DNA of 50,243 nt from IMG/VR virus record IMGVR_UViG_3300003319_000320, positions 1 to 50,243 of that record; one strand, written 5' to 3'. Source of the stretch: a virus. The position numbers and the translations under genes were made by a program. The notes under the pieces were generated by a model, which had not been told where the DNA came from, ran no database searches, and saw nothing but the letters and a program-made list of their open reading frames with translations. Positions 9,789 to 49,354 of this stretch are shown here, one piece after another; positions within the stretch are counted from its first letter, which is position 1, and each line of letters opens with the position of its first letter.

Positions 9789-10039
9789 ATCACACCTTCC
9801 GTGACTTCAAAAAAGAGGGAGTTTGGTCCGCAGAAAGTCAGCCCACAGTGTTTGAAGTGGGCCAACACGCCTTTCTCTTTCAATCGGACCACGGCGGAGT
9901 TGATCATCGCCTCTGTTTTGTGTATCCCACTTCGAAGATGGAGAAGCCCGTGGCGACCTCCCTGGCGAATCACGGAGTCAATCACATCCATCTCCACCTC
10001 ATCCAACTCGCGAAGTTTCTTAATCAAATCTTTATCCAT
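9785..10039 (-). CDS. Small winged-helix-like hypothetical protein
   Basis: An 84-residue protein from the ATG at 10039 (GGAAG a few bases upstream; a GTG at 10060 is possible). The helical N-terminus and the segment RSGIHKTEAMINSAVVRLKEKGVLAHF look like a winged-helix reading head, in which a recognition helix is followed by a wing. A short CGLTFCG segment ends the domain. It lies between the dCMP deaminase and clamp genes and overlaps both. Confidence 0.5.
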   Translation of the reverse strand: MDKDLIKKLRELDEVEMDVIDSVIRQGGRHGLLHLRSGIHKTEAMINSAVVRLKEKGVLAHFKHCGLTFCGPNSLFFEVTEGVI

Positions 10040-10449
10040 GCTCTTCCGGCCTTTCTCCACAGGTATTCAGCGTTGTTCGGGTAGTCCTCCAAAAACACGA
10101 TTCGTGAACAGGAGGTGTTTAGAAGCAGCTTTGTGCACGACACGCATGGGCTGGCCGACACATAGCAAGTTCTGATTTTATACACGTCCGGAACGGTTAT
10201 GACAGCGTTCTGCTCCGCGTGTATGGCGTCACATAGATCTAATCCCTGGCCAGACTCAAAGTTAGCCCCTTGACATGGAGAGTCTAGGCAGTGTGGTAGT
10301 CCTCGGGCCACGCCGTTGTAGCCCATTCCCAGCACCCTGGTGTACTCATCCACCAGGATACAGCCGACAGCCCTTCTGACACAGGTGGAGCGGGCGGCCA
10401 CCAGGGGAAGCATGTCAGTGAAGTAAATGTCTATCGCTGGGCGCTTCAT
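10024..10449 (-). CDS. dCMP deaminase
   Basis: 141 residues with the cytidine-deaminase zinc site: HAEQNA (His ligand, catalytic Glu) at about residues 77-82 and PCVSC (two Cys ligands) about 25 residues later. The long insert with additional Cys (CLDSPCQG) is typical of deoxycytidylate deaminases. It converts dCMP to dUMP, which the ThyA encoded at 18631 turns into dTMP. ATGA-coupled to the upstream gene. T4 pairs the same enzyme with its hydroxymethylcytosine pathway, a pairing repeated here. Confidence 0.9.
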   Translation of the reverse strand: MKRPAIDIYFTDMLPLVAARSTCVRRAVGCILVDEYTRVLGMGYNGVARGLPHCLDSPCQGANFESGQGLDLCDAIHAEQNAVITVPDVYKIRTCYVSASPCVSCTKLLLNTSCSRIVFLEDYPNNAEYLWRKAGRAWIKI

Positions 10450-10823
10450 GGGAGAACAAGGTCTCCAATCTTTAGGTCATCCTGCGCACCTGTGAAAGTG
10501 GCAGCTTGAATTTTGATGCGCTGACGCCTGGCGATAGCTATCTCTCCGGCCACCCCCACAGACTTGTCCCAACCATCAAGAGTGAGCACCCAAAGTTGAT
10601 CACATCGTATGAGTATGTTTTCATTCTGAGGCTGCCAGAGCTTCCATCCTCTTCCAAGATCCCGGTGAAGGATCAATGGGTGATTATGCACAATGGGAGA
10701 AAACACAGATAAGCCCATGTGGAGCACCGTGCAGGCTGCTCGCACGGCAGCTTTGTATCTTCTCTCCCGTATCTCTGGATCGGGAGAATTGTACGGGCTA
10801 GCTAAGTAGATAAGATTTGTCAT
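10446..10823 (-). CDS. DUF1937 (deoxyribosyltransferase-like fold) protein
   Basis: A 125-residue protein with the DUF1937 pattern: YLASPYNSPDPEIRERRY at the N-terminus, FSPIVHNHPL in the middle and CDQLWVLTLDGWDKSVGVAGEI at the end. This Rossmann-like fold is related to nucleoside 2-deoxyribosyltransferases and SLOG proteins, which bind or cleave nucleotides at the glycosidic bond. The usual acidic catalytic residue may be the Glu in GVAGEI. The substrate is unknown. ATGA-coupled to the polymerase gene. Confidence 0.75.
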   Translation of the reverse strand: MTNLIYLASPYNSPDPEIRERRYKAAVRAACTVLHMGLSVFSPIVHNHPLILHRDLGRGWKLWQPQNENILIRCDQLWVLTLDGWDKSVGVAGEIAIARRQRIKIQAATFTGAQDDLKIGDLVLP

Positions 10824-12931
10824 TGAACTATACCAGTCTCCTCAATCACATCGTCCTCAAACACCAACTCTGGTTCAGGGTCCCCTTCCATAACCAGTCC
10901 AGCCCAGCACTGATGCCCCTCTTTTTTGACGTCCCAACACTCCAAGCACATCTCTTTCTTCTGCGCCCAGCTCGGAAAACCTTTGGACACCTCAACTGGC
11001 AGGAAAGTCTCTATGTGTCTCTTCTCCATGGCGTCTCTGAGCTGAGGGATGATCATTCTCTCTTCATCGTAGGGCACCTCAAAAATCAGTTCGTCGTGCA
11101 CTTGGAGCAGCATCTTGGTGCGACACTCAACCCTCTTTAAGAGCTTGTCAACTTCAAGCATGCTGCGCTTCACAATGTCGGCTGAAGTACCTTGGATAAG
11201 ATAATTGACGGCGGTGTAAGCCTTATCCCGAACAACGTCATAGCGTCTTCCGAATCTATTCTTGACGTAACCACGCGTTTCAATGGTGCGACTCACGTTG
11301 CCTATGAACGCCTTGGCTTTGGGGAAGCGGGCGAAGTAATCATCCTTGTAAACTTTGGCCTCCTCCTCCGATTTTTGAATTTGGGCTGCTAGCTTCTCTA
11401 GCCCAATTCCGTAGATGAGACCAAAGTTGATGGCTTTGGCAAGAGTCCTGTAGAACTTCCACAGAGCGTGATCTTTGTCGACGTGCCACACTTGGGCTGC
11501 GACGTGGCCGTGGAAGTCAAAGTTGGGGTCCTCAAGCAAGGCCGTGAGTTGGTCGTCCTTGACGTAGTCAGCAAAAACCCGCATTTCCATCTGAGAGAAG
11601 TCTATGAACCAGAGGTTGTGCCCCTCTCGGGGAACGTATAGTCTCCTCACCGACACGGTCAAGTCATCATCCACAAATGAGGTGGTCACACCCTTGACTG
11701 TGGCTCCAGTAACAGAGCTCACTTTGGTGCCACCGGAAAGGTCCACATGTTGCCCTTGATAGGCGCCCAGCATGGCCTGAAAGGCTTTGAGCACCTCTTC
11801 ACTCATTTCCTCCCCCAGCAAGTTTTGACTACCGCGGCTGATGTTTTGGAGGTTCGGCTCCTTACAGCTCATGCGTCCCGTGACAGTCCCCCAAGGAAGG
11901 AAACGACAGTGTAAGATGTGGTCCTTCCACTCCAATAGTGGTTCAAAGTAGGTATTCTTAATCTTTTCAATGGTCCTGATTTCAATGATCATTCCCACTG
12001 CCGGGTGATTGAGTTGCATCAGCTCCGCAACGCCCCACTGGGCCTTACGCTTTCCGGTCTTCACATGGGGCTTGCCCCAGGCCACAGGTTTTACACCAAC
12101 TCGAGAAAAGGCCTCGGTGAGTTGGTCCGTGCTGGCAATGTTGAACTCCATACCGAAAATTTCCCAGACCTGCTTCTCCAGCTGCCTCAACCTGGCCTCC
12201 AACTTGGGAATACGGTCCATGCAGTAGGCATAGTCAAACTGAACTCCAGCGCGCTCCATCTCCCAAAGTATCTTTAGGAGGTGGCACTCCTGTTCCCACA
12301 CGTCCTGCTGTCCGGTGTGGTGAATGTGTTGGACCAGCGTCTCTCTCAACTCCCAGGTATTTCCCAAGTCGCCAACACAGTAGGGACCCACCAATGAGGC
12401 CGGGGCTTGATCAAAGTGCCCCTTCCAGCCTCCACGCTCAAGCTCCCTTATGAACTTCTTTTTCCATTGATCGTTCTTCTTAAGAACATTGTGCACCAGG
12501 CCATCCAGGCTAAGGTCTGGGTGCTTGTCTGCCGACTGAAGGCGTCCCCCAGTCATGGTGTCTTCCAACACCTGGTGCTCACCTGGGATGTATCCATCCA
12601 TGTGAAGCGCCGTGACGTCGAACTTGATGTTGTGACCGATGAGCACTGGCACCCGCTGTATGGCGTCCATCACCGTGGGGAGCGTCTCCAATGGGAGGTT
12701 GTCGTTGGGAGCGGTGATGTTGGCGAACAGCGGCATGTCACCTTGATTTATCTGATGCCTATAGGAGAGATAGAAGTAGTCCTTGCCCTCCAATCCGAGG
12801 CCGATACCGCACAGTCGATCTCTTTTCCAGAGTTCCACACCCGTGGTTTCCGTGTCTAACACCGCCTCCTTGGCGGAAGCTAGCATCGGAAGAAATGCCT
12901 CAAGGTCATTGACTCGGGTGATGATGTTCAT
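10820..12931 (-). CDS. polA: DNA polymerase, family A, with proofreading domain
   Basis: 703 residues without a 5'-3' exonuclease domain. The 3'-5' proofreading site looks complete: DTETTG (Exo I, D26/E28), HNIKFD (Exo II) and YCVGD (Exo III). The polymerase motifs are present: motif A DFSQMEMR near 443, motif B R-x3-K-x3-F-x3-YG near 495 and motif C QVHDE near 612. The motif B Phe suggests normal dNTP-over-ddNTP selectivity. The C-terminus carries CLECWD with another CW downstream and ends in an acidic ELVFEDD tail. It is the replicative polymerase candidate, acting with the phage clamp, helicase and primase. Confidence 0.93.
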   Translation of the reverse strand: MNIITRVNDLEAFLPMLASAKEAVLDTETTGVELWKRDRLCGIGLGLEGKDYFYLSYRHQINQGDMPLFANITAPNDNLPLETLPTVMDAIQRVPVLIGHNIKFDVTALHMDGYIPGEHQVLEDTMTGGRLQSADKHPDLSLDGLVHNVLKKNDQWKKKFIRELERGGWKGHFDQAPASLVGPYCVGDLGNTWELRETLVQHIHHTGQQDVWEQECHLLKILWEMERAGVQFDYAYCMDRIPKLEARLRQLEKQVWEIFGMEFNIASTDQLTEAFSRVGVKPVAWGKPHVKTGKRKAQWGVAELMQLNHPAVGMIIEIRTIEKIKNTYFEPLLEWKDHILHCRFLPWGTVTGRMSCKEPNLQNISRGSQNLLGEEMSEEVLKAFQAMLGAYQGQHVDLSGGTKVSSVTGATVKGVTTSFVDDDLTVSVRRLYVPREGHNLWFIDFSQMEMRVFADYVKDDQLTALLEDPNFDFHGHVAAQVWHVDKDHALWKFYRTLAKAINFGLIYGIGLEKLAAQIQKSEEEAKVYKDDYFARFPKAKAFIGNVSRTIETRGYVKNRFGRRYDVVRDKAYTAVNYLIQGTSADIVKRSMLEVDKLLKRVECRTKMLLQVHDELIFEVPYDEERMIIPQLRDAMEKRHIETFLPVEVSKGFPSWAQKKEMCLECWDVKKEGHQCWAGLVMEGDPEPELVFEDDVIEETGIVQ

Positions 12932-13473
12932 TCGAAAAATGGGTCAAGGAAGTAAACAGCGCGCTCCACTAGCTCATCCACGTCCGTGTCATTGTTGACT
13001 CTACACTTCTTCATCTCACACTGAGCGTAAGAGAGATCGAACAAGTCCCGTTGGAGCTCAAACTCCCTCTCCTCCAACATTGGTTCCCTATTGCGAAATT
13101 GCATCCACAGTTGAAACCAAAGCGGATACCTGATGTCCACCAGGATCACCACGGCCTTTTCTAAGGCGGCCAACTCCATGATGTCTGGTCTCATGATGGA
13201 GGGGCGACCAAAGTATTCGGAGTAGACCCGCTCGGACAAGGAATATCGAGTTTTAACAAATCCTCTTCCGGAGTGGACGAATTGAGTCTGTTGAAGGTTA
13301 ATGCCTCCCACTATGTAAGTCCAAGCGGTGGAGTCAAACATCGTCAAGCCCTCTCTGAACGGACCGTTGTCGATGTACATCAGGCCGTAGTGTTGAGCCA
13401 GTCGCTTGGCCAACTCGGTTTTTCCGCAACCATCCACACCCTCAATAAAGATGATGGCGTCCTTAGATTCCAT
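12928..13473 (-). CDS. dNMP kinase (thymidylate-kinase-like)
   Basis: 181 residues, P-loop EGVDGCGKT at about residues 10-18 in the form seen in thymidylate kinases (FIEGVDGCGKTELAKRLA). A mid-protein region with Arg-rich residues (YSLSERVYSEYFGRP) may serve nucleotide binding. It would phosphorylate a dNMP to dNDP. It is the first biochemical step after the hydroxymethylase encoded four genes away, so 5-hydroxymethyl-dCMP is a sensible substrate, as for T4 gene 1 kinase. Coupled by ATGA to polA and by 11 bases of overlap to the glycosyltransferase. Confidence 0.75.
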   Translation of the reverse strand: MESKDAIIFIEGVDGCGKTELAKRLAQHYGLMYIDNGPFREGLTMFDSTAWTYIVGGINLQQTQFVHSGRGFVKTRYSLSERVYSEYFGRPSIMRPDIMELAALEKAVVILVDIRYPLWFQLWMQFRNREPMLEEREFELQRDLFDLSYAQCEMKKCRVNNDTDVDELVERAVYFLDPFFE

Positions 13474-14785
13474 GTATCTCCTCTATGACTTTGGCAAAGT
13501 TTGGGGTGTACCTTACATAGTGCTCGTTGACATAAAAGTTTTCAAGCACTTTTTCATGCGCGGATGTTCCATAGAGGTTGGTGATCATGTTGTACTTGAC
13601 TGGGCCAAGCTCATCCAGATTGGAGATCAAGTAGGGTGGCATCACATCTCGAAACCAAGACTGACACTCAAAACGGTTGAGGCTCACTGGCAGGGCTCTT
13701 CCATAGGCCACAACCTCCCTGATTGAGATGCCACCATACCGCTCATGCTCGTACAAACAGATGCCAACATGCGCCCTTCTGCAAATGTTCACATACTGAT
13801 CTCTTGTGAGACCTCGACTCACCCAGATCTTTTTGTTGGGAGAGACGTTGAAGTTGAGTCTTTCCCCGAATAGCTCCAGTGACTCTTGAGAGTAGTTGTC
13901 CACCCAGCGGCTGACAGGTGACGGGCCGGTTTCCACCAACACGTCCCAGCCCTTGTCCCGGGAGGGATTGCAAATGATCACACGCCCATTCGTGCTGTCA
14001 TCTGTGAAGAGTTGGAACACCTTTTCCCAGTTGGTGTACTTGGACTCCGTAATGCGGGCGGGAAAGACGGCCGTTAACTGGTCAAATTTTTTTGCTCGAG
14101 GCTCATCTGCCAAGCCGAGTTCATCCAGGTCCAGGTAAGGAAAGTGCGTGGCTGATGGCGTCATAGCGAAGGTCAATGGTATACCCGTGTGATTGAGGGC
14201 CTCCTTCCACCCCTCCAACGAGGATCGACAGTTGAACACATTGAGGTCGCTGCTCAAGTACCCGTCGAGCTGCCTCCAAAAATACGAGAAAGTATTGCCA
14301 TTGCGCCAACTTGTCACGAGCTTGTTTTCGTGTATGTAGTCCGGAAAGTGGTGACAACTGATGATCGGCAAGTACCGAGGGCCAAGCAGAGCTCGAATGT
14401 TTCTGGTGATCTCAGGTATGTTGTTGATGACGGCGTCAGCGTGGGTCAGATGACTTCGCCAGTCATTGGGGCAAAAGTTATATCGATTGATGATCGGAGA
14501 CAACTCCCCGTCACCCCACAGGTATTGAACATCCAGTCGGTCCTGACACCCCTCAACGAGTTTTGCGATGTCGCTGTAGAACACAGTCTCCTTCACCACG
14601 TCCGCGGGAGGAACTATCACTCTGATCAAGTACCCCGGATCTTCCTTATCGTTTTCCAAGTGATTCTTAAAGTATTTGAGCACGATCTTGAGCATCAGGA
14701 AAGCTCCATCTGCGTCGATGAAGGCGTACTCCTTATCGTTCATGCTGAACTGTGGTATGTAAAGTATTCGCTTTCTATTTTTCAT
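13463..14785 (-). CDS. GT-B glycosyltransferase (GT1/GT4-like)
   Basis: 440 residues from the ATG at 14785, which overlaps the mutase stop as ATGA. The C-terminal half looks like the donor-binding domain of GT-B enzymes, with an E-x7-E type element in YEHERYGGISIREVVAYG and an upstream VSRGLTRDQYVNICRRAHVGI segment. The N-terminal half (ILYIPQFSMND; HADAVINNIPEITRN; SCHHFPDYI) would bind the acceptor. Being sandwiched between UDP-galactopyranose mutase and a dNMP kinase, and followed by a hydroxymethylase, it is a strong candidate to transfer galactofuranose or a related furanose to a hydroxymethylated base. Transfer to a protein or a cell-surface glycan cannot be excluded. Confidence 0.75.
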   Translation of the reverse strand: MKNRKRILYIPQFSMNDKEYAFIDADGAFLMLKIVLKYFKNHLENDKEDPGYLIRVIVPPADVVKETVFYSDIAKLVEGCQDRLDVQYLWGDGELSPIINRYNFCPNDWRSHLTHADAVINNIPEITRNIRALLGPRYLPIISCHHFPDYIHENKLVTSWRNGNTFSYFWRQLDGYLSSDLNVFNCRSSLEGWKEALNHTGIPLTFAMTPSATHFPYLDLDELGLADEPRAKKFDQLTAVFPARITESKYTNWEKVFQLFTDDSTNGRVIICNPSRDKGWDVLVETGPSPVSRWVDNYSQESLELFGERLNFNVSPNKKIWVSRGLTRDQYVNICRRAHVGICLYEHERYGGISIREVVAYGRALPVSLNRFECQSWFRDVMPPYLISNLDELGPVKYNMITNLYGTSAHEKVLENFYVNEHYVRYTPNFAKVIEEIHGI

Positions 14786-15891
14786 AGGCTGAGCTCCCTG
14801 TCCGCTAATTGAAGGGCGGCTGGAATGGTTTGATGCATGTCCCAATACTTGTAGCTGGCGAGACGTCCCCCAAATAAAGTATCGCTCTCTCGGTCAGCCA
14901 ACTCCCTGTACATGGAAAACAGATGTAAGTTGTGAGCATCCCCAACGGGATAATACGGAATTTTCCCCTCCGCATAAGTGTCCGGGGTTTCATAGGTGAT
15001 CCACGAGTGCTTGACGCTCTTCATCTGAAAGTGGTGGTGCTCTATGATGCGCGTGTAGTCCACCGTGTGGTCGGTGTAGTTGATGGCTGCGTTTCCCTGC
15101 CAATCCGGAACTCCGTTGAGAAACACGTGATTAAACTTCAGACCGCGATACTCAAGGCGGCCGAATCGATAGTCGTAGTACTCATCCAGCATTCCCGTGA
15201 ACAGTGTCTTCTTGGCCAGCTCGTCAAGCGCACGCTTGTCCTTGAAGTAGTCACAGTCTAGAAAGACCTTCACTCCCTGAAGCATCTTTTGAAACATCGG
15301 AGTGTAGCCACCGACCGGTATACCTTGGTAAGGATCATCAAAGTAATTGTCATCATAAGTGAGACGGATTGGTATTCGCTTCAGTATGGAGGCGGGAAGT
15401 TCTCTAGGCTCTCTACCCCACTGCTTCTTGGTGTAGCCATAAATGAAGATGCGATAGAGCCACTCTCCCAGCTGAGACAGGCCGTACTCCTCCAGATTTT
15501 GAGGATCAGCTATCCCCACCTTGGCCCTCTCTCGTGCCAACACCTCCCGGGCCCGGTCAGGAGTGGTGCATCCAAACACCTGGTAAAGAGTCATCAAGTT
15601 GATTGGGAATGAGTAGATCTTATTCTTGAAGGCCACCTTGGGACGATAAGTAAAGTGATTGAACGTGGCGAATTGATTCACGTGTTCCCACACCGACTTG
15701 TTAGTGCAGTGAAAGATGTGAGGCCCGTACATGTGGATATTGATGTCGTCACGGTCCTCAGTGTAGCAGTTACCCCCGATGTGGGCCCGCTTGTCTATCA
15801 CCAGACAGCGCTTGCCGGCTTGAGTCATTTTCCAGGCGAAGGTGGCACCAAAGAGACCGGCGCCAACGATCAAGTAATCGTACTGTTTCAC
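14782..15891 (-). CDS. glf: UDP-galactopyranose mutase
   Basis: 369 residues from GTG 15891 (GTGA overlap; a GTG at 15903 is possible). It has the FAD-binding start YLIVGAGLFGATFA, the second FAD motif RAHIGGNCYTE and the family hallmark YGPHIFHCTNKSVWEHVNQF, followed by the substrate-binding region (YSFPINLMTL) and conserved aromatic/Arg residues. The enzyme interconverts UDP-galactopyranose and UDP-galactofuranose using reduced FAD; some homologues also act on UDP-arabinopyranose. Length matches bacterial Glf (about 370). Directly followed by a glycosyltransferase, it probably supplies that enzyme's sugar donor. Very clear identification; rare in a phage replication module as far as I know. 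Confidence 0.93.
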   Translation of the reverse strand: MKQYDYLIVGAGLFGATFAWKMTQAGKRCLVIDKRAHIGGNCYTEDRDDINIHMYGPHIFHCTNKSVWEHVNQFATFNHFTYRPKVAFKNKIYSFPINLMTLYQVFGCTTPDRAREVLARERAKVGIADPQNLEEYGLSQLGEWLYRIFIYGYTKKQWGREPRELPASILKRIPIRLTYDDNYFDDPYQGIPVGGYTPMFQKMLQGVKVFLDCDYFKDKRALDELAKKTLFTGMLDEYYDYRFGRLEYRGLKFNHVFLNGVPDWQGNAAINYTDHTVDYTRIIEHHHFQMKSVKHSWITYETPDTYAEGKIPYYPVGDAHNLHLFSMYRELADRESDTLFGGRLASYKYWDMHQTIPAALQLADRELSL

Positions 15892-16286
15892 GCCTCCAGC
15901 CACTCCTTTAACTTCTTGTCCAATGGCTCCTCATACTCAGTTTCTCCCAAGATGAGTATGCGAAATGAATCAAGTGCATATTTTCCGATGCCTGGCAGTG
16001 ATGCCACCTGCTCCACGTTAAATTGATGGCCATCTTCAAAGGTGTCAAACACCGCGCTCATGGAGATGATTCGAATGGAGCGCTGGCGCTGAAAACCCAG
16101 TGGTCTCAGCACCTCTTCCATGTGTCGCACCTGACCGATCACGTAGCGCGGTCCAGGAAAACGCTTAAAAAACTCCGGCATGACCTTGCGAGCCGCGTCG
16201 CCACTCACCTTATTGAGACAGATGCAGCACACCAAAAACTCCCACAAGTTGTCCTTGTGCTCATTTTGTAACAGTGGTGGTTTCAC
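15888..16286 (-). CDS. HhH-GPD DNA glycosylase, MBD4-like
   Basis: A minimal 132-residue glycosylase domain. It has the helix-hairpin-helix LPGIGKYALDS (residues 97-107) and an Asp at 123 in EPLDKKLKEW at the place of the catalytic Asp. The start NLWEFLVCCICLNKVSGDAA and VLRPLGFQRQRS resemble the catalytic domain of MBD4, which removes T or 5-hydroxymethyluracil opposite G. No iron-sulphur cluster cysteines follow. It lies between the mutase and the hydroxymethylase, where it could repair hydroxymethylcytosine that has deaminated. GTG start; ribosome site weak. Fold firm; substrate inferred. Confidence 0.8.
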   Translation of the reverse strand: MKPPLLQNEHKDNLWEFLVCCICLNKVSGDAARKVMPEFFKRFPGPRYVIGQVRHMEEVLRPLGFQRQRSIRIISMSAVFDTFEDGHQFNVEQVASLPGIGKYALDSFRILILGETEYEEPLDKKLKEWLEA

Positions 16287-17049
16287 CTGATTGGGTGTAC
16301 CCCTTTCTCACCAGCATCGGCTCTGACTCCATGCGGATAACCTTTTCAACCAACTCCTGCTGACTGGAGAAGTAGTGGGCTGATCCACAGTTCTGATAAT
16401 ATCGCCCCATGACCAGCCTGCCTTTGTAGCCCCACTTCAGGCGGTTGTAAACGTACTCCTGGAGCATGGTGAAGTTGAAAACGTCATAAACCAAGGTAGT
16501 GACCATGTTGTTACTGCGCATCTTTACTTGGCAGTGGAGCTCGTTCTCACGTATGAAAAAGGAGAGGCTCTCAGTGCAGGGAAACTCCTCCTTGGTTCCC
16601 GTGCCGAGCATAGCCAAATCTCCCTCGTCCAGGATGCTGATCACGGCTCGCCTACTTCCAGGGTCTCTCTCCAGTTCTCCTATCACCGCATCGAGTTGCC
16701 TCGCCACTCGAGGTCCGTATGCCGTGGAGAACTTTGGAGCCTGAACATCTGCTTTGTTGGGATTCAAATATGACTTGGCGTTAGGGTTGACGTCGGCCAC
16801 GTACTCAAAATCGTCACATCCATTGAGCATCCAAATAAAAAACCTCATGGCAAAATCATAGTTGGTGGCTCTACCTTTGTTCCAAACCAGACGGTCATAC
16901 GGATTGGTGAGCTCAAAAGAGAGGTTCAAGATCTCTCTGGCCTCCTCTCCCCTGGTGTTGACCACGTATTCCGGGCGCTCATTCAACTCCGTCAATATTC
17001 GGATGTACAGGGACTCAAAGCTACAGTCGACAAAGTATTTTGTGCTCAC
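16261..17049 (-). CDS. Thymidylate-synthase-family dCMP hydroxymethylase (probable)
   Basis: 262 residues with the thymidylate synthase core: SRRAV (residues 132-136), catalytic Cys158 in EFPCTES and MRSNN (177-181), corresponding to the Arg-Ser pair that binds phosphate. The residue equivalent to Asn177 of E. coli ThyA, which reads the uracil ring, is Asp189 (LVYDVFNF). Asn-to-Asp at this site is the known mark of dCMP hydroxymethylases such as T4 gp42. A canonical ThyA is encoded at 18631, so this copy is free to have another substrate. Expected reaction: dCMP plus methylene-tetrahydrofolate to 5-hydroxymethyl-dCMP. GTG start, GTGA-coupled to the dCTPase-like gene. Confidence 0.8.
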   Translation of the reverse strand: MSTKYFVDCSFESLYIRILTELNERPEYVVNTRGEEAREILNLSFELTNPYDRLVWNKGRATNYDFAMRFFIWMLNGCDDFEYVADVNPNAKSYLNPNKADVQAPKFSTAYGPRVARQLDAVIGELERDPGSRRAVISILDEGDLAMLGTGTKEEFPCTESLSFFIRENELHCQVKMRSNNMVTTLVYDVFNFTMLQEYVYNRLKWGYKGRLVMGRYYQNCGSAHYFSSQQELVEKVIRMESEPMLVRKGYTQSGETTTVTK

Positions 17050-17591
17050 TCGTTGTTGTGCTCCTCATCAAATCTCTGCTCCACTAGCTGGGACTTTCTC
17101 CAGAACTCTCTGCAAAACTCCTCTTCACTGATACACCAGATGATGGCCAGCCCCCAGAGAAACTTCTGCACGTCTATCATCTCTTGTGCCACGTTCTGAG
17201 GATTGAGATTCTCCGGTTGTTTGCGGTGTTTTTTCCAATCGGTGTTTTGCAACACTTCGGTGAGCTCCGCGTGGAGTGAGAGCAAGTATTCCCTTGTCAG
17301 GTCGGTCCTTTGCTCATCAGTGAGGGAGTCGAGACTCAGTCCACGCGAGGTCAACACCTTCTCGGTGAAGTTGCGCTGGCAGGCGTACATCGCCTCAAAG
17401 TCCATACCGGGCCCAGCCACCCCCAGCAAGTGTCGGCGACCGTATATGGCGCACATGACGATGCTCTTGAAAAAATTTCTCTCATAACGTGACACTTGAT
17501 CCGGTGGCTTTCCAGTGGCCAAGGACGCTGCTGCACGGTATGGATCTTCCCTGAATGGAGCGATGTCTATCTCTACGTTATCAGTGTCCAA
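17046..17591 (-). CDS. dCTPase/dUTPase-like all-alpha pyrophosphatase with odd N-terminus
   Basis: 181 residues. The C-terminal two thirds carry the dimeric dUTPase/dCTPase signature E109-x2-E112 (HAELTEVL) and E137-x2-D140 (AQEMIDVQKFLWGLAI), then a late K/R-rich helix. T4 gp56 dCTPase belongs to this superfamily and keeps unmodified dCTP out of DNA. The first 55 residues instead resemble the fingers of family A polymerases: DPYRAAASL, then R38-x3-K42-x3-M46-x3-Y50-G51. The TTG start has GAAGGAG 9 bases upstream. It is coupled to the hydroxymethylase, which supports a dCTP or dUTP substrate. Confidence 0.7.
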   Translation of the reverse strand: MDTDNVEIDIAPFREDPYRAAASLATGKPPDQVSRYERNFFKSIVMCAIYGRRHLLGVAGPGMDFEAMYACQRNFTEKVLTSRGLSLDSLTDEQRTDLTREYLLSLHAELTEVLQNTDWKKHRKQPENLNPQNVAQEMIDVQKFLWGLAIIWCISEEEFCREFWRKSQLVEQRFDEEHNNE

Positions 17592-17917: not shown

Positions 17918-18634
17918 CTAGTCGCTTTTGCTCGCGGTCTTCACGGTCTTTGACGTCACGTTGTAAAAAGGAATGTCCGCCAACTCTACCGGAAGGTGAC
18001 CGGCGTGGATCATCTCTTCCGTGTGTATCAAACACATCACGTTCCAAAGAGCGGCGGAAAGGTGATCCTCACTGCGATCACCGAGGCGCCACTGATTGAG
18101 GTGCCGTTTGGCCCCATCCTCATACCAGGACAGAGGCATACCCTTTTCCCAGTTTCGACAACCCCCACCCTGCCTGTACTTGATGTCAGCCAGCTCCATG
18201 TGAAGGGCTAAGCGCTCGAGCGCTATGGGACTGATGGCGTCAAAGCGACCCTTTCCGGTGGCCCTCTCTCGAAGGGCTCCAGTGGGCATCTCCACGCGGT
18301 GACCCGTGTCGTTGAGTCGCCTCTCCCCAATGCGGCGGTCTTCGGCGATTTGACGGTCACAGTCCTCAATCACCTGTTCGTTTTCTGCGATCAACTCGGG
18401 AATGGTCATGTTGTATCCGAGCTTGTCACGGGCCGCCTTCATCAAGGTATGGAACAGCTTAGGATCTGGCGACACATCCCCTTTTATGCCAGCCCAGGTG
18501 AACTCCGACTCGGCGATCATCGCGAGCCTATCCATCTCGGCCACGGAAAACCGCAGGTTAGCTTGATTAAAACGCCGATCCATGTAATGTAGGAACTCAA
18601 CCTCGTTCATTTCCAAGCTGCTCTTCTCGCTCAC
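17918..18634 (-). CDS. DUF5664 (dATP/dGTP diphosphohydrolase-like) protein
   Basis: 238 residues from GTG 18634, which overlaps the thyA stop as GTGA with GGAGG 5 bases upstream; a TTG at 18664 is less likely. The C-terminal 110 residues match DUF5664: RFDAISPIALERLALHMELADIKY, NWEKGMPLSWYEDGAKRHLNQWRLG and a final helix EDHLSAALWNVMCLIHTEE, with the His and Asp/Glu residues expected to bind metal. The first 120 residues are helical and not recognised. Members are annotated as dATP/dGTP diphosphohydrolases, but the exact reaction here is not proven. Confidence 0.7.
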   Translation of the reverse strand: MSEKSSLEMNEVEFLHYMDRRFNQANLRFSVAEMDRLAMIAESEFTWAGIKGDVSPDPKLFHTLMKAARDKLGYNMTIPELIAENEQVIEDCDRQIAEDRRIGERRLNDTGHRVEMPTGALRERATGKGRFDAISPIALERLALHMELADIKYRQGGGCRNWEKGMPLSWYEDGAKRHLNQWRLGDRSEDHLSAALWNVMCLIHTEEMIHAGHLPVELADIPFYNVTSKTVKTASKSD

Positions 18635-19527
18635 ACCGCCACCTCCGCTTCGATCTTTGGCCAAGAGTCGTACCCGTCGAGTTTTAAGTCCGTGTACCGC
18701 ATTGACAATAGCCGCTCCAAGGGTGCCAAACCCACTCTACTATCGCCATCATTTATCTCAAGCACGGGTAATGGGCGTGGCTCTCTGGAGAGAAGTAGCT
18801 CCACTTGCTCAAGGTGATTTTTATAGATGTGAAGGTCACCGAATGAGATGATCAAGTACTTGGGTTCGTACCCAGTGCAGTAAGCGATCATTGAGAGTAG
18901 AAGGCCATAGGAAGCTATGTTGAATGGAAGACCCAAAAAGCTGTCAATGCTCCTCGCATAGAGGTGAAGGGACATGTACTGGTTTGGATGCACCTTGATC
19001 TGCCACAGCGTGTGGCACGGGGGAAGAGAGACTATGTCACAGGACTCGGGGTCCCAACCGGTCACGATGTGCCTCCGACTGTTTGGGTTGTTTTCAATGT
19101 CGCACATGAGACGGGCGATCTGATCCACTCCCCAGGCGGAACTGTTCTGTATACCCAATTCCCTTTGGTATCTGACGGGATGGTAGCGCATGCCGAAGTG
19201 GCGCCACAGCCAGCCATACACCGGGCCAAGGTCTCCCGGTTCCCTGCGGAATTTTGCGCATTCCTCCGGGGTGGCCCACTCTTTCCAAATGTCCACCCCA
19301 GCCGCTCTTAGTGCTCCTTCATCGGTGCTCCCACTGAGAAACCAAAACAGCTCTTCCGCGACCCAGCGAAAAGGTACACGCTTGCTGGTGATCAATGGAA
19401 ACCCTGTGCGCATGTCGTGAAAGAACACCGTTCCGTCAAAAACGGAGAGAGTTCCCACGCCGGTGCGATCATCGTGACTCTCCCCGCATTTCAAGATGTG
19501 TTTGAGAAGATCTTGATAGGCTTTCAT
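18631..19527 (-). CDS. thyA: Thymidylate synthase
   Basis: 298 residues with all hallmarks of ThyA: DDRTGVGT near the start, catalytic Cys171 in LPPCHTLWQ, ARSIDSFLGLPFNIASYG with Asn203 for dUMP, and the final folate-binding region GDLHIYKNH. It methylates dUMP to dTMP using methylene-tetrahydrofolate. It is coupled to neighbours by ATGA and GTGA overlaps and works downstream of the dCMP deaminase. Its intact Asn contrasts with the Asp in the paralogue at 16261. Confidence 0.95.
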   Translation of the reverse strand: MKAYQDLLKHILKCGESHDDRTGVGTLSVFDGTVFFHDMRTGFPLITSKRVPFRWVAEELFWFLSGSTDEGALRAAGVDIWKEWATPEECAKFRREPGDLGPVYGWLWRHFGMRYHPVRYQRELGIQNSSAWGVDQIARLMCDIENNPNSRRHIVTGWDPESCDIVSLPPCHTLWQIKVHPNQYMSLHLYARSIDSFLGLPFNIASYGLLLSMIAYCTGYEPKYLIISFGDLHIYKNHLEQVELLLSREPRPLPVLEINDGDSRVGLAPLERLLSMRYTDLKLDGYDSWPKIEAEVAV

Positions 19528-27970: not shown

Positions 27971-28359
27971 AGCGATTACACCTCTATATACTGTTGAGTG
28001 CGCTGTGCGTAATGGCCCTGATTGCCTACATCGCAGCCAACGCCAACAGCGCTGATGTGACCATTGAGGTGGCTGGCCCACCGGCCGTTCACGAGGCGCC
28101 ACAGACGCCAGTATCCAGCCCTCCTCAAGACGTGTTCATCTGGTTCAATCACGAGGCGCAGGCCGCTTATCTCAGCGACAAGCAGTGGTCCTCCATGGTG
28201 GAGTTGGTATTTTTCTTCGGCCCGGAAGGGCACTCCAAGGACACTGGCGCCATCGCCAAGTGCACGCTGAGCAGGGAGTACGTGGACAGCTACATCTCCA
28301 AAAGCTACCTCGGTGAGCTGAGGGTCCCCCGGTCCAAGTGCAGGGAGGTTCATCCGTGA
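27967..28359 (+). CDS. Small membrane-anchored or secreted protein
   Basis: 130 residues with a basic start (MKRLH) and one hydrophobic segment (LYILLSALCVMALIAYIA, residues 6-23), which is either an uncleaved anchor or a signal peptide ending near Ala-Asn-Ala. A Pro-rich linker follows, then a small outside domain with two Cys (CTLS and SKCREV). It would face the periplasm or cell exterior, so exclusion of other phages or a surface role is conceivable. No homologue is recognised. Confidence 0.6.
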   Translation: MKRLHLYILLSALCVMALIAYIAANANSADVTIEVAGPPAVHEAPQTPVSSPPQDVFIWFNHEAQAAYLSDKQWSSMVELVFFFGPEGHSKDTGAIAKCTLSREYVDSYISKSYLGELRVPRSKCREVHP

Positions 28360-28862
28360 AGTTTTATACGGGGGTGGGATCCCGGGAAACCCCAGAAGCT
28401 GTGCTTCAGATCATGGAGCGTATCGGCGCCGCCATGGCTCGAAAGGGCTGGACGCTCAGGTCCGGCGCGGCCGACGGGGCTGACGCAGCCTTCGAGCGTG
28501 GATGTGACTCGGTGGACTCTCAACTCAAGGAGATATTTCTTCCCTGGAAGAATTTCAACAATCACCCTTCCCCACTGTACGAGGTGCGGGACAAGGCTCT
28601 GTTGGAAAGGGCGGAGTTGATCATCTCCGTAATACATCCGCGCTGGAAGTTTCTCACTTTTGGCGCCAAGAAGCTGCACACCAGAAACGTGTTTCAGGTG
28701 CTCGGACAAGATCTTGAAGAACCATCTGAGGTGGTGTTTTGTTGGACCAAAAACGGTAAGGCTGTGGGTGGAACCGCAACCGCCATCAACCTGGCTGGAC
28801 AACGCGACATATCAGTTATCAACTTGGCCACCATGGAGGTCCCCGAGATGTATTTGATTTGA
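28356..28862 (+). CDS. SLOG-superfamily (DprA/LOG-like) nucleotide-binding protein
   Basis: 169 residues from GTG 28356: it overlaps the previous stop as GTGA and has GGGAGG 7 bases upstream. The pattern FYTGVGSRETP, then GWTLRSGAADGADAAFERG is the SLOG nucleotide-binding signature. Later segments (RAELIISVIHPRW; VVFCWTKNGKAVGGTATAINLA) complete the Rossmann-like fold. SLOG proteins sense or cleave nucleotides such as ADP-ribose derivatives, or handle DNA as in DprA. The role in the phage is not known. Confidence 0.75.
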   Translation: MKFYTGVGSRETPEAVLQIMERIGAAMARKGWTLRSGAADGADAAFERGCDSVDSQLKEIFLPWKNFNNHPSPLYEVRDKALLERAELIISVIHPRWKFLTFGAKKLHTRNVFQVLGQDLEEPSEVVFCWTKNGKAVGGTATAINLAGQRDISVINLATMEVPEMYLI

Positions 28863-48613: not shown

Positions 48614-49354
48614 TTACGTGAGTCCTAACTCTGCTGGAAGTATTTCCGCCATTTGCACTCCTTTGACTTCCGAGGCTATGTCAGCCCTCAGATTCAAGGA
48701 GTTCTGTAAAAACCTCATGGGCGTGTCGTACTCTCCCGACCAGGAGACCACCACACCATTGGCCGGGGCATTTGTGAAGACCACCGTGCCGGTGGTGTTG
48801 TCTACCGTGTACCCGGAAGCCTGAACTACTCCGTTGAGCATCACGCGAAAGGCCGGTACTCCGTTGGCGGCCGCATCCAAGCTCGGTATCACTCTCTGTG
48901 TGATACCGTCAGCTTCAAACAGGGTGGGGCATCCAGGGGCGAGCAAACTATTGACCACCGGTTTTATGCATCGCTTGTCAAAAATCCTCGCAGTTCCTGG
49001 GCGCTTAAACTCTCGAATGAGCTTCCAGGTTTTGCTCGCCGTTGTTCCGTCACTGATACCCAACACCTGATTGACCACGAAAAAATCGCTGAAGATGCGC
49101 ACTCTCAATCCGTATCCACTGCCCAACCCACCGACCCAGATTTTCATCAAGTACTGAACCATGGCGTAGTTAAGCAGGTTGAGGTCAAAGGTCCACACCT
49201 GTTGAAAGTCAAAGCGAGTGACGTTGGTTTTATATACGCCCGTGGGAGGGTTACGGATCAGGGAGTTGTCGTACTCCGGCCCTCCCACGGCGTCCCCCGC
49301 GGTGAATATGTTTGGATCAAGCAGAATCTCATCAAACAGGTATATGACGGCCAT
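48614..49354 (-). CDS. DUF2460 distal tail protein
   Basis: 246 residues following the DUF2460 pattern: an N-terminal TRFDFQQVWTFDLNLLNYAMVQYL, the middle KTWKLIREFKRPGTARIFDKRCIKPVV, then VMLNGV ... YTVDNTTGTVVFTNAPANGVVVSWSGEYDTPMRF (given in parts). DUF2460 forms the distal tail ring in gene-transfer-agent-like tails, between tail tube and hub. It directly follows the tape-measure gene, as in those systems. Confidence 0.8.
   Translation of the reverse strand: MAVIYLFDEILLDPNIFTAGDAVGGPEYDNSLIRNPPTGVYKTNVTRFDFQQVWTFDLNLLNYAMVQYLMKIWVGGLGSGYGLRVRIFSDFFVVNQVLGISDGTTASKTWKLIREFKRPGTARIFDKRCIKPVVNSLLAPGCPTLFEADGITQRVIPSLDAAANGVPAFRVMLNGVVQASGYTVDNTTGTVVFTNAPANGVVVSWSGEYDTPMRFLQNSLNLRADIASEVKGVQMAEILPAELGLT

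Follow-up and report, generated by a model that had tools for sequence, protein, structure and literature searches.

What does a virus gain from a UDP-galactopyranose mutase (UGM) placed among genes for nucleotide modification? The question is raised by six minus-strand ORFs at positions 12928-17591 of the window, which is a whole IMG/VR virus record (50,243 b). An earlier note, made from the DNA letters alone, took the run for a candidate operon that would produce hydroxymethylcytosine DNA carrying a furanose sugar. Our own leading reading, held with about even confidence and built on sequence comparison, is a module for cytosine hypermodification at the nucleotide level, of the RB69/LC53 kind but with a different sugar supply, whose product would be galactofuranosyl-5-hydroxycytosine.

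An overlapping run of nucleotide and sugar genes

As read from the DNA, overlaps join all adjacent gene pairs of the operon and continue into the gene for the family A DNA polymerase (PolA): GTGA between the dCTPase-like gene and the thymidylate-synthase (TS) homologue, 26 nt between the latter and the helix-hairpin-helix (HhH) glycosylase, GTGA between the glycosylase and UGM (whose likely start is GTG 15891), ATGA between UGM and the glycosyltransferase (GT; the ATG start at 14785 is better than TTG 14845), 11 nt between the GT and the kinase, and ATGA between the kinase and PolA (Table 1). The gene content described in the earlier note is thus borne out, namely the single overlapping run, UGM, the TS homologue with its dCMP-type Asp, the MBD4-like glycosylase, a dNMP kinase (at the level of a broad family), a GT-B glycosyltransferase (by way of its relatives), and ThyA and dCMP deaminase nearby.

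Table 1. Genes of the operon and its surroundings, in window coordinates
Feature	Positions	Strand	Basis
All-alpha NTP pyrophosphatase, dUTPase/dCTPase-like	17046..17591	(-)	PF08761 dUTPase_2 1.1e-5
Glu-less TS homologue, probable 5-hydroxy-dCMP synthase	16261..17049	(-)	residues and clade
MBD4-like HhH-GPD DNA glycosylase, catalytic Asp conserved	15888..16286	(-)	family profile vs MBD4 2e-33
UDP-galactopyranose mutase (UGM)	14782..15891	(-)	PF03275 2e-72; 1i8t 1.7e-127
GT4-like glycosyltransferase, probable DNA transferase	13463..14785	(-)	profile of relatives without window 3e-14
Nucleoside-monophosphate kinase-like P-loop protein	12928..13473	(-)	phrog_761 2e-10; related-loci kinases 1.7e-9
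Family A DNA polymerase (PolA), next gene of run	10820..12931	(-)	PF00476 2.6e-82; ATGA overlap
dCMP deaminase-like protein (context)	10024..10449	(-)	homologues adjoin TS homologues in other viruses
Canonical thymidylate synthase paralogue ThyA, Glu and Asn kept	18631..19527	(-)	PF00303 1.6e-86; residues

UGM matches the GLF family and, over its full length, the solved UGM 1i8t. For the kinase, the phrog_761 match ('thymidylate kinase') is a broad-family assignment, and the second match is to kinases of loci that carry the GT family of the window; T4 gp1 is unsupported as a specific relative. The same holds for T4 gp56 and the pyrophosphatase, whose match is to the broad dUTPase_2 family, and this protein may be a plain dUTPase. 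Taken alone, the HhH protein matches PF00730 at 7e-4, below the cut-off, but its family profile identifies MBD4, with the catalytic Asp invariant. Relatives of it lie within a few kb of the module in the loci L154/L156, L175/L176 and L184. MBD4 acts on T:G and hmU:G mismatches. MBD4-like HhH glycosylases are also found in Bradleyvirinae Donnerlittchen and AXL_1 (L017:7914-10032 and L018:7914-10100), where a pyrophosphohydrolase and a TS homologue of the Asp type that keeps its Glu lie nearby, a hint that these phages modify cytosine.

Elsewhere in the window we recognised a DprA-like protein (28338-28862), a glycoside-hydrolase-like protein (48614-49354) and, beside ThyA, a protein of the dATP/dGTP diphosphohydrolase N-terminal family (17918-18664; PF18909, 8e-16). 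The latter prompted a Z-genome reading, which we rejected as the record holds no adenylosuccinate-synthetase-family gene (PurZ). No terminase or capsid genes were recognised among the window ORFs scanned, and no close relatives of the virus were found with PolA as the query.

A thymidylate-synthase homologue in the RB69 clade

The TS homologue matches PF00303 at 3e-10, and its best matches in the PDB are 9iqu and the CMP hydroxymethylase MilA. When aligned with T4 gp42, RB69, SPO1, M6, ThyA and others, it retains residues equivalent to Cys148, Ser169 and Asp179 (T4 numbering), and thus combines a dCMP-type Asp with a deoxy-type Ser. As an Asp179-type residue goes with dCMP (PMC5175136), dCMP is therefore its expected substrate. 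A hypermodification of the hydroxymethyluracil type was rejected, as the SPO1 and M6 enzymes are Asn-type and the window enzyme is Asp-type.

The position of T4 Glu60, on the other hand, is occupied by Phe, and the part of the window enzyme that aligns with this helix contains no Glu, in small and larger alignments alike. One small alignment sets a Glu of RB69 in the Glu60 column, but the larger alignments do not. In T4 dCMP hydroxymethylase and E. coli TS alike, this residue activates the folate cofactor (PMC6400193). Its loss is common to RB69, LC53, Acj9, Acj61, PspYZU05, PTm1, phiM9 and other relatives (with Tyr in L163), and these Glu-less enzymes, together with that of the window, form one clade (support 99/95 with 41 rows and 99/99 with 23 rows), inside which the RB69 and LC53 enzymes are placed. 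In Mosigvirus phages such as RB69, a TS-superfamily enzyme is reported in a 2026 paper to make 5-hydroxy-dCMP, with the arabinose of their DNA joined directly at C5, correcting an earlier arabinosyl-hydroxymethyl reading (PMC13390438). By clade and residues, the window synthase is thus a probable 5-hydroxy-dCMP synthase of the RB69 type, and the sugar is therefore more likely to be bound directly through an oxygen at C5. The use of the Glu loss as a marker of 5-hydroxy-dCMP activity is a proposal of our own analysis.

Scans of the viral collection yielded about 60 loci. By profile annotation, a GT of either the RB69 or the window family lies close to the Glu-less synthases in nearly all cases, a linkage rate that is biased because the sample was partly fetched with the RB69-type GT, although a synthase-driven scan gives the same pattern. 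Exceptions without a nearby GT are contig ends (e.g., L120, L140 and L142). The set also includes 11 dCMP-type enzymes that keep the Glu, and none of them has a GT of these two families nearby.

The glycosyltransferase and its probable sugar supply

Alone, the window GT has no match in Pfam, PHROGs, the PDB or phage records, and direct searches with it returned no relative from phages, viral contigs or bacterial genomes; nor did a pattern scan across 84,980 genomes of bacteria and archaea return a confirmed one. Its relatives surfaced only through the synthase-clade scan, and it is because of them that it can be identified as a GT. They are about 25% identical to it and, in six other distinct loci (L149, L154/L156, L174, L175/L176, L184 and L186/L187), adjoin Glu-less synthases and kinases or kinase-like genes; none of these relatives lies next to a UGM. 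A profile built without the window matches, among the window ORFs, the window GT alone (E 3e-14; the best of 200 shuffles reached E 1.3). The model of the relative from L154 (pLDDT 84) has a GT-B fold and aligns over its full length with retaining GT4 enzymes, such as BshA and MshA (Z about 30); the AlphaFold model of the window GT itself, from five sequences, was poor and was left unused. With the fold taken from the L154 relative and membership from the profile, we classify the window GT as GT4-like, and its gene linkage makes DNA its probable acceptor. A comparison with the family of the RB69 GTs p046/p047 gave only weak collinear motifs, and statistical homology between the two families could not be shown. 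The closest loci to the window by their synthase carry this other, RB69 GT family, so that the operon reads as a mosaic.

The order synthase-GT-kinase is the same in the window, RB69, LC53, Acj9, Acj61, PspYZU05 and Apostate, and around this constant core the sugar genes are swapped. RB69-like phages carry an isomerase, a nucleotidyltransferase and a HAD protein, encoded near the core, and L149, L154, L174, L175 and L184 carry NAD-dependent epimerases/dehydratases, so that another sugar is likely in these large viruses. These also encode further GT-sized ORFs without assignment. In L186 no sugar gene was recognised with the core, and in the window the sugar gene is UGM; no window ORF matches the RB69-type nucleotidyltransferase, isomerase or HAD at E 0.1.

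None of the 16 viral contigs that carry a Glu-less synthase contains UGM, and neither do the seven T4-like or jumbo phage isolates whose genomes were tested (RB69, LC53, Acj9, Acj61, PspYZU05, Apostate and PTm1); in no genome tested did UGM occur together with the arabinose-type nucleotidyltransferase. Conversely, when 80 viral loci were retrieved by their UGM, not one showed a Glu-less synthase within 8 kb, and most viral UGMs therefore do something else.

Two further groups nevertheless combine UGM with cytosine-modification genes. In Pootjesviridae (L194-L201), a Glu-less synthase, an adjacent GT and a UGM occur in all four genomes tested (phiM9, Atu_ph04, RL38J1 and N34), with an RB69-type nucleotidyltransferase in none of them; unlike in the window, their UGM lies elsewhere in the genome, away from the synthase, and their GT is of the RB69 family. 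Counted by genus name, records of the phiM9-type synthase and records of UGM give the same figures (20 Rhizobium, 5 Agrobacterium, 2 Sinorhizobium and 1 Ochrobactrum), although the co-occurrence may reflect common descent within one family. No account of the modification chemistry of Pootjesviridae was found in a partial literature search. An independent case is that of Lactobacillus phage ATCCB (MK504445, L191:4031-7086), in which a dCMP-type TS homologue, a homologue of the T4 beta-glucosyltransferase (31%, 5e-49) and UGM stand side by side. As its synthase keeps the Glu and its GT is of the T4 beta type, unlike those of the window, the expected base in ATCCB is hydroxymethylcytosine, and the gene set suggests a modified sugar on it; the ATCCB paper was not found to mention these genes. 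In Aeromonas phage Aes508 (L016:7451-11230), UGM is followed by ORFs of 358 and 348 residues without family matches; gp42 there is of the T4 type, and a further sugar on hydroxymethylcytosine is possible.

Proposed pathway and its alternatives

In the pathway that we propose, the pyrophosphatase would lower dCTP and yield dCMP, which the Glu-less TS homologue would convert to 5-hydroxy-dCMP; the kinase would begin its conversion to the triphosphate, and the polymerase would insert this into DNA instead of cytosine. UGM, whose enzyme family is clear and whose activity we infer, would turn UDP-galactopyranose into UDP-galactofuranose, and the GT4-like transferase, judging by linkage and fold, would place galactofuranose on the 5-hydroxyl in DNA. 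From its family and linkage, the MBD4-like glycosylase would excise the deaminated modified base, e.g., 5-hydroxyuracil opposite G. The net effect would be DNA that resists host nucleases and is hidden from bacterial defences.

The T4-equivalent pathway of the earlier note survives in its logic, with cytosine modified as a nucleotide and then glycosylated: dCTP removal, dCMP modification, a kinase and a DNA glycosyltransferase are common to T4 (glucosyl-5-hydroxymethylcytosine) and the window. RB69 and LC53 (arabinosyl-5-hydroxycytosine; Mosigvirus and Winklervirus) are the better analogy, as they share with the window the Glu-less TS homologue with its dCMP-type Asp. T4 gp42, in contrast, retains Glu60 and shares only about 20% identity with the window synthase, the window GT is unlike the T4 alpha- or beta-GT, and T4 draws on host UDP-glucose, with no UGM or MBD4-like gene in its cluster. 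From RB69 and LC53 the window differs in having UGM in place of the isomerase, nucleotidyltransferase and HAD, a GT of an apparently different family, an added MBD4-like glycosylase, and a small virus with a family A polymerase around them. The hydroxymethylcytosine of the earlier note is probably wrong. UGM as the sugar supplier stands as the best reading, and the sugar is probably a furanose provided that UGM feeds the GT, with galactofuranose as the predicted identity.

That the base is nonetheless 5-hydroxymethylcytosine bearing galactofuranose, by a T4-like route with another sugar, we consider quite improbable: the Asp179 and Ser169 equivalents are as in T4 gp42, and ATCCB demonstrates that UGM can accompany a dCMP-type synthase with its Glu intact and a homologue of the beta-glucosyltransferase, but the window synthase lacks the folate-activating Glu60 (PMC6400193) and falls inside the RB69 clade. 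Doubts about the sugar weigh somewhat more, although we still regard it as unlikely that the same cytosine module attaches something other than galactofuranose, with UGM acting on another UDP-sugar (e.g., UDP-arabinopyranose), or with the GT using a host sugar (e.g., UDP-glucose) while UGM serves another purpose. Relatives do use arabinose (PMC13390438), the core of L186 manages without a recognised sugar gene, and the substrate range of a UGM is unreadable from its sequence; against this, UGM, which directly precedes the GT, is tied into the operon by an overlap at either end (GTGA and ATGA), no pentose-supply gene was matched in the window, and UGM recurs with cytosine-modification genes in ATCCB and Pootjesviridae.

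A role outside DNA, in which UGM and the GT decorate a glycan of the host or virion surface (e.g., in O-antigen change) and are merely located in a nucleotide-metabolism operon, seems very unlikely to us. Streptococcus phages carry glf, UGM stands among genes of the polysaccharide type on a contig of a gut phage, and surface-glycan enzymes often have a GT4 fold. Yet members of the window GT family are repeatedly neighbours of Glu-less synthases and kinases in other large phages, and the pattern scan of cellular genomes gave no confirmed relative.

Galactofuranose is a sugar of microbial cell surfaces. Its report on any DNA was not found in our literature search, which was incomplete, nor were the window GT family and its linked glycosylase; glycosylated 5-hydroxycytosine, in contrast, is already known (PMC13390438). 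We put forward tentatively, at somewhat less than even confidence, that UGM-made galactofuranose is placed on modified DNA cytosine in several unrelated groups (this virus, the Pootjesviridae of Rhizobium and Agrobacterium, and ATCCB), here as galactofuranosyl-5-hydroxycytosine with a dedicated MBD4-like guard against deamination. With this recurrent glycosylase it could be tested whether phages that modify cytosine bring along a deamination repair of their own, and the loss of the Glu60 equivalent together with an adjoining GT would provide a sequence rule to tell 5-hydroxycytosine from 5-hydroxymethylcytosine phages. The comparison points to the sugar as an exchangeable cassette in the glycosylation of cytosine DNA and lets us expect galactofuranose as a new decoration of DNA, a prediction made directly testable by the isolated phages with similar gene sets (phiM9, Atu_ph04, RL38J1 and ATCCB).
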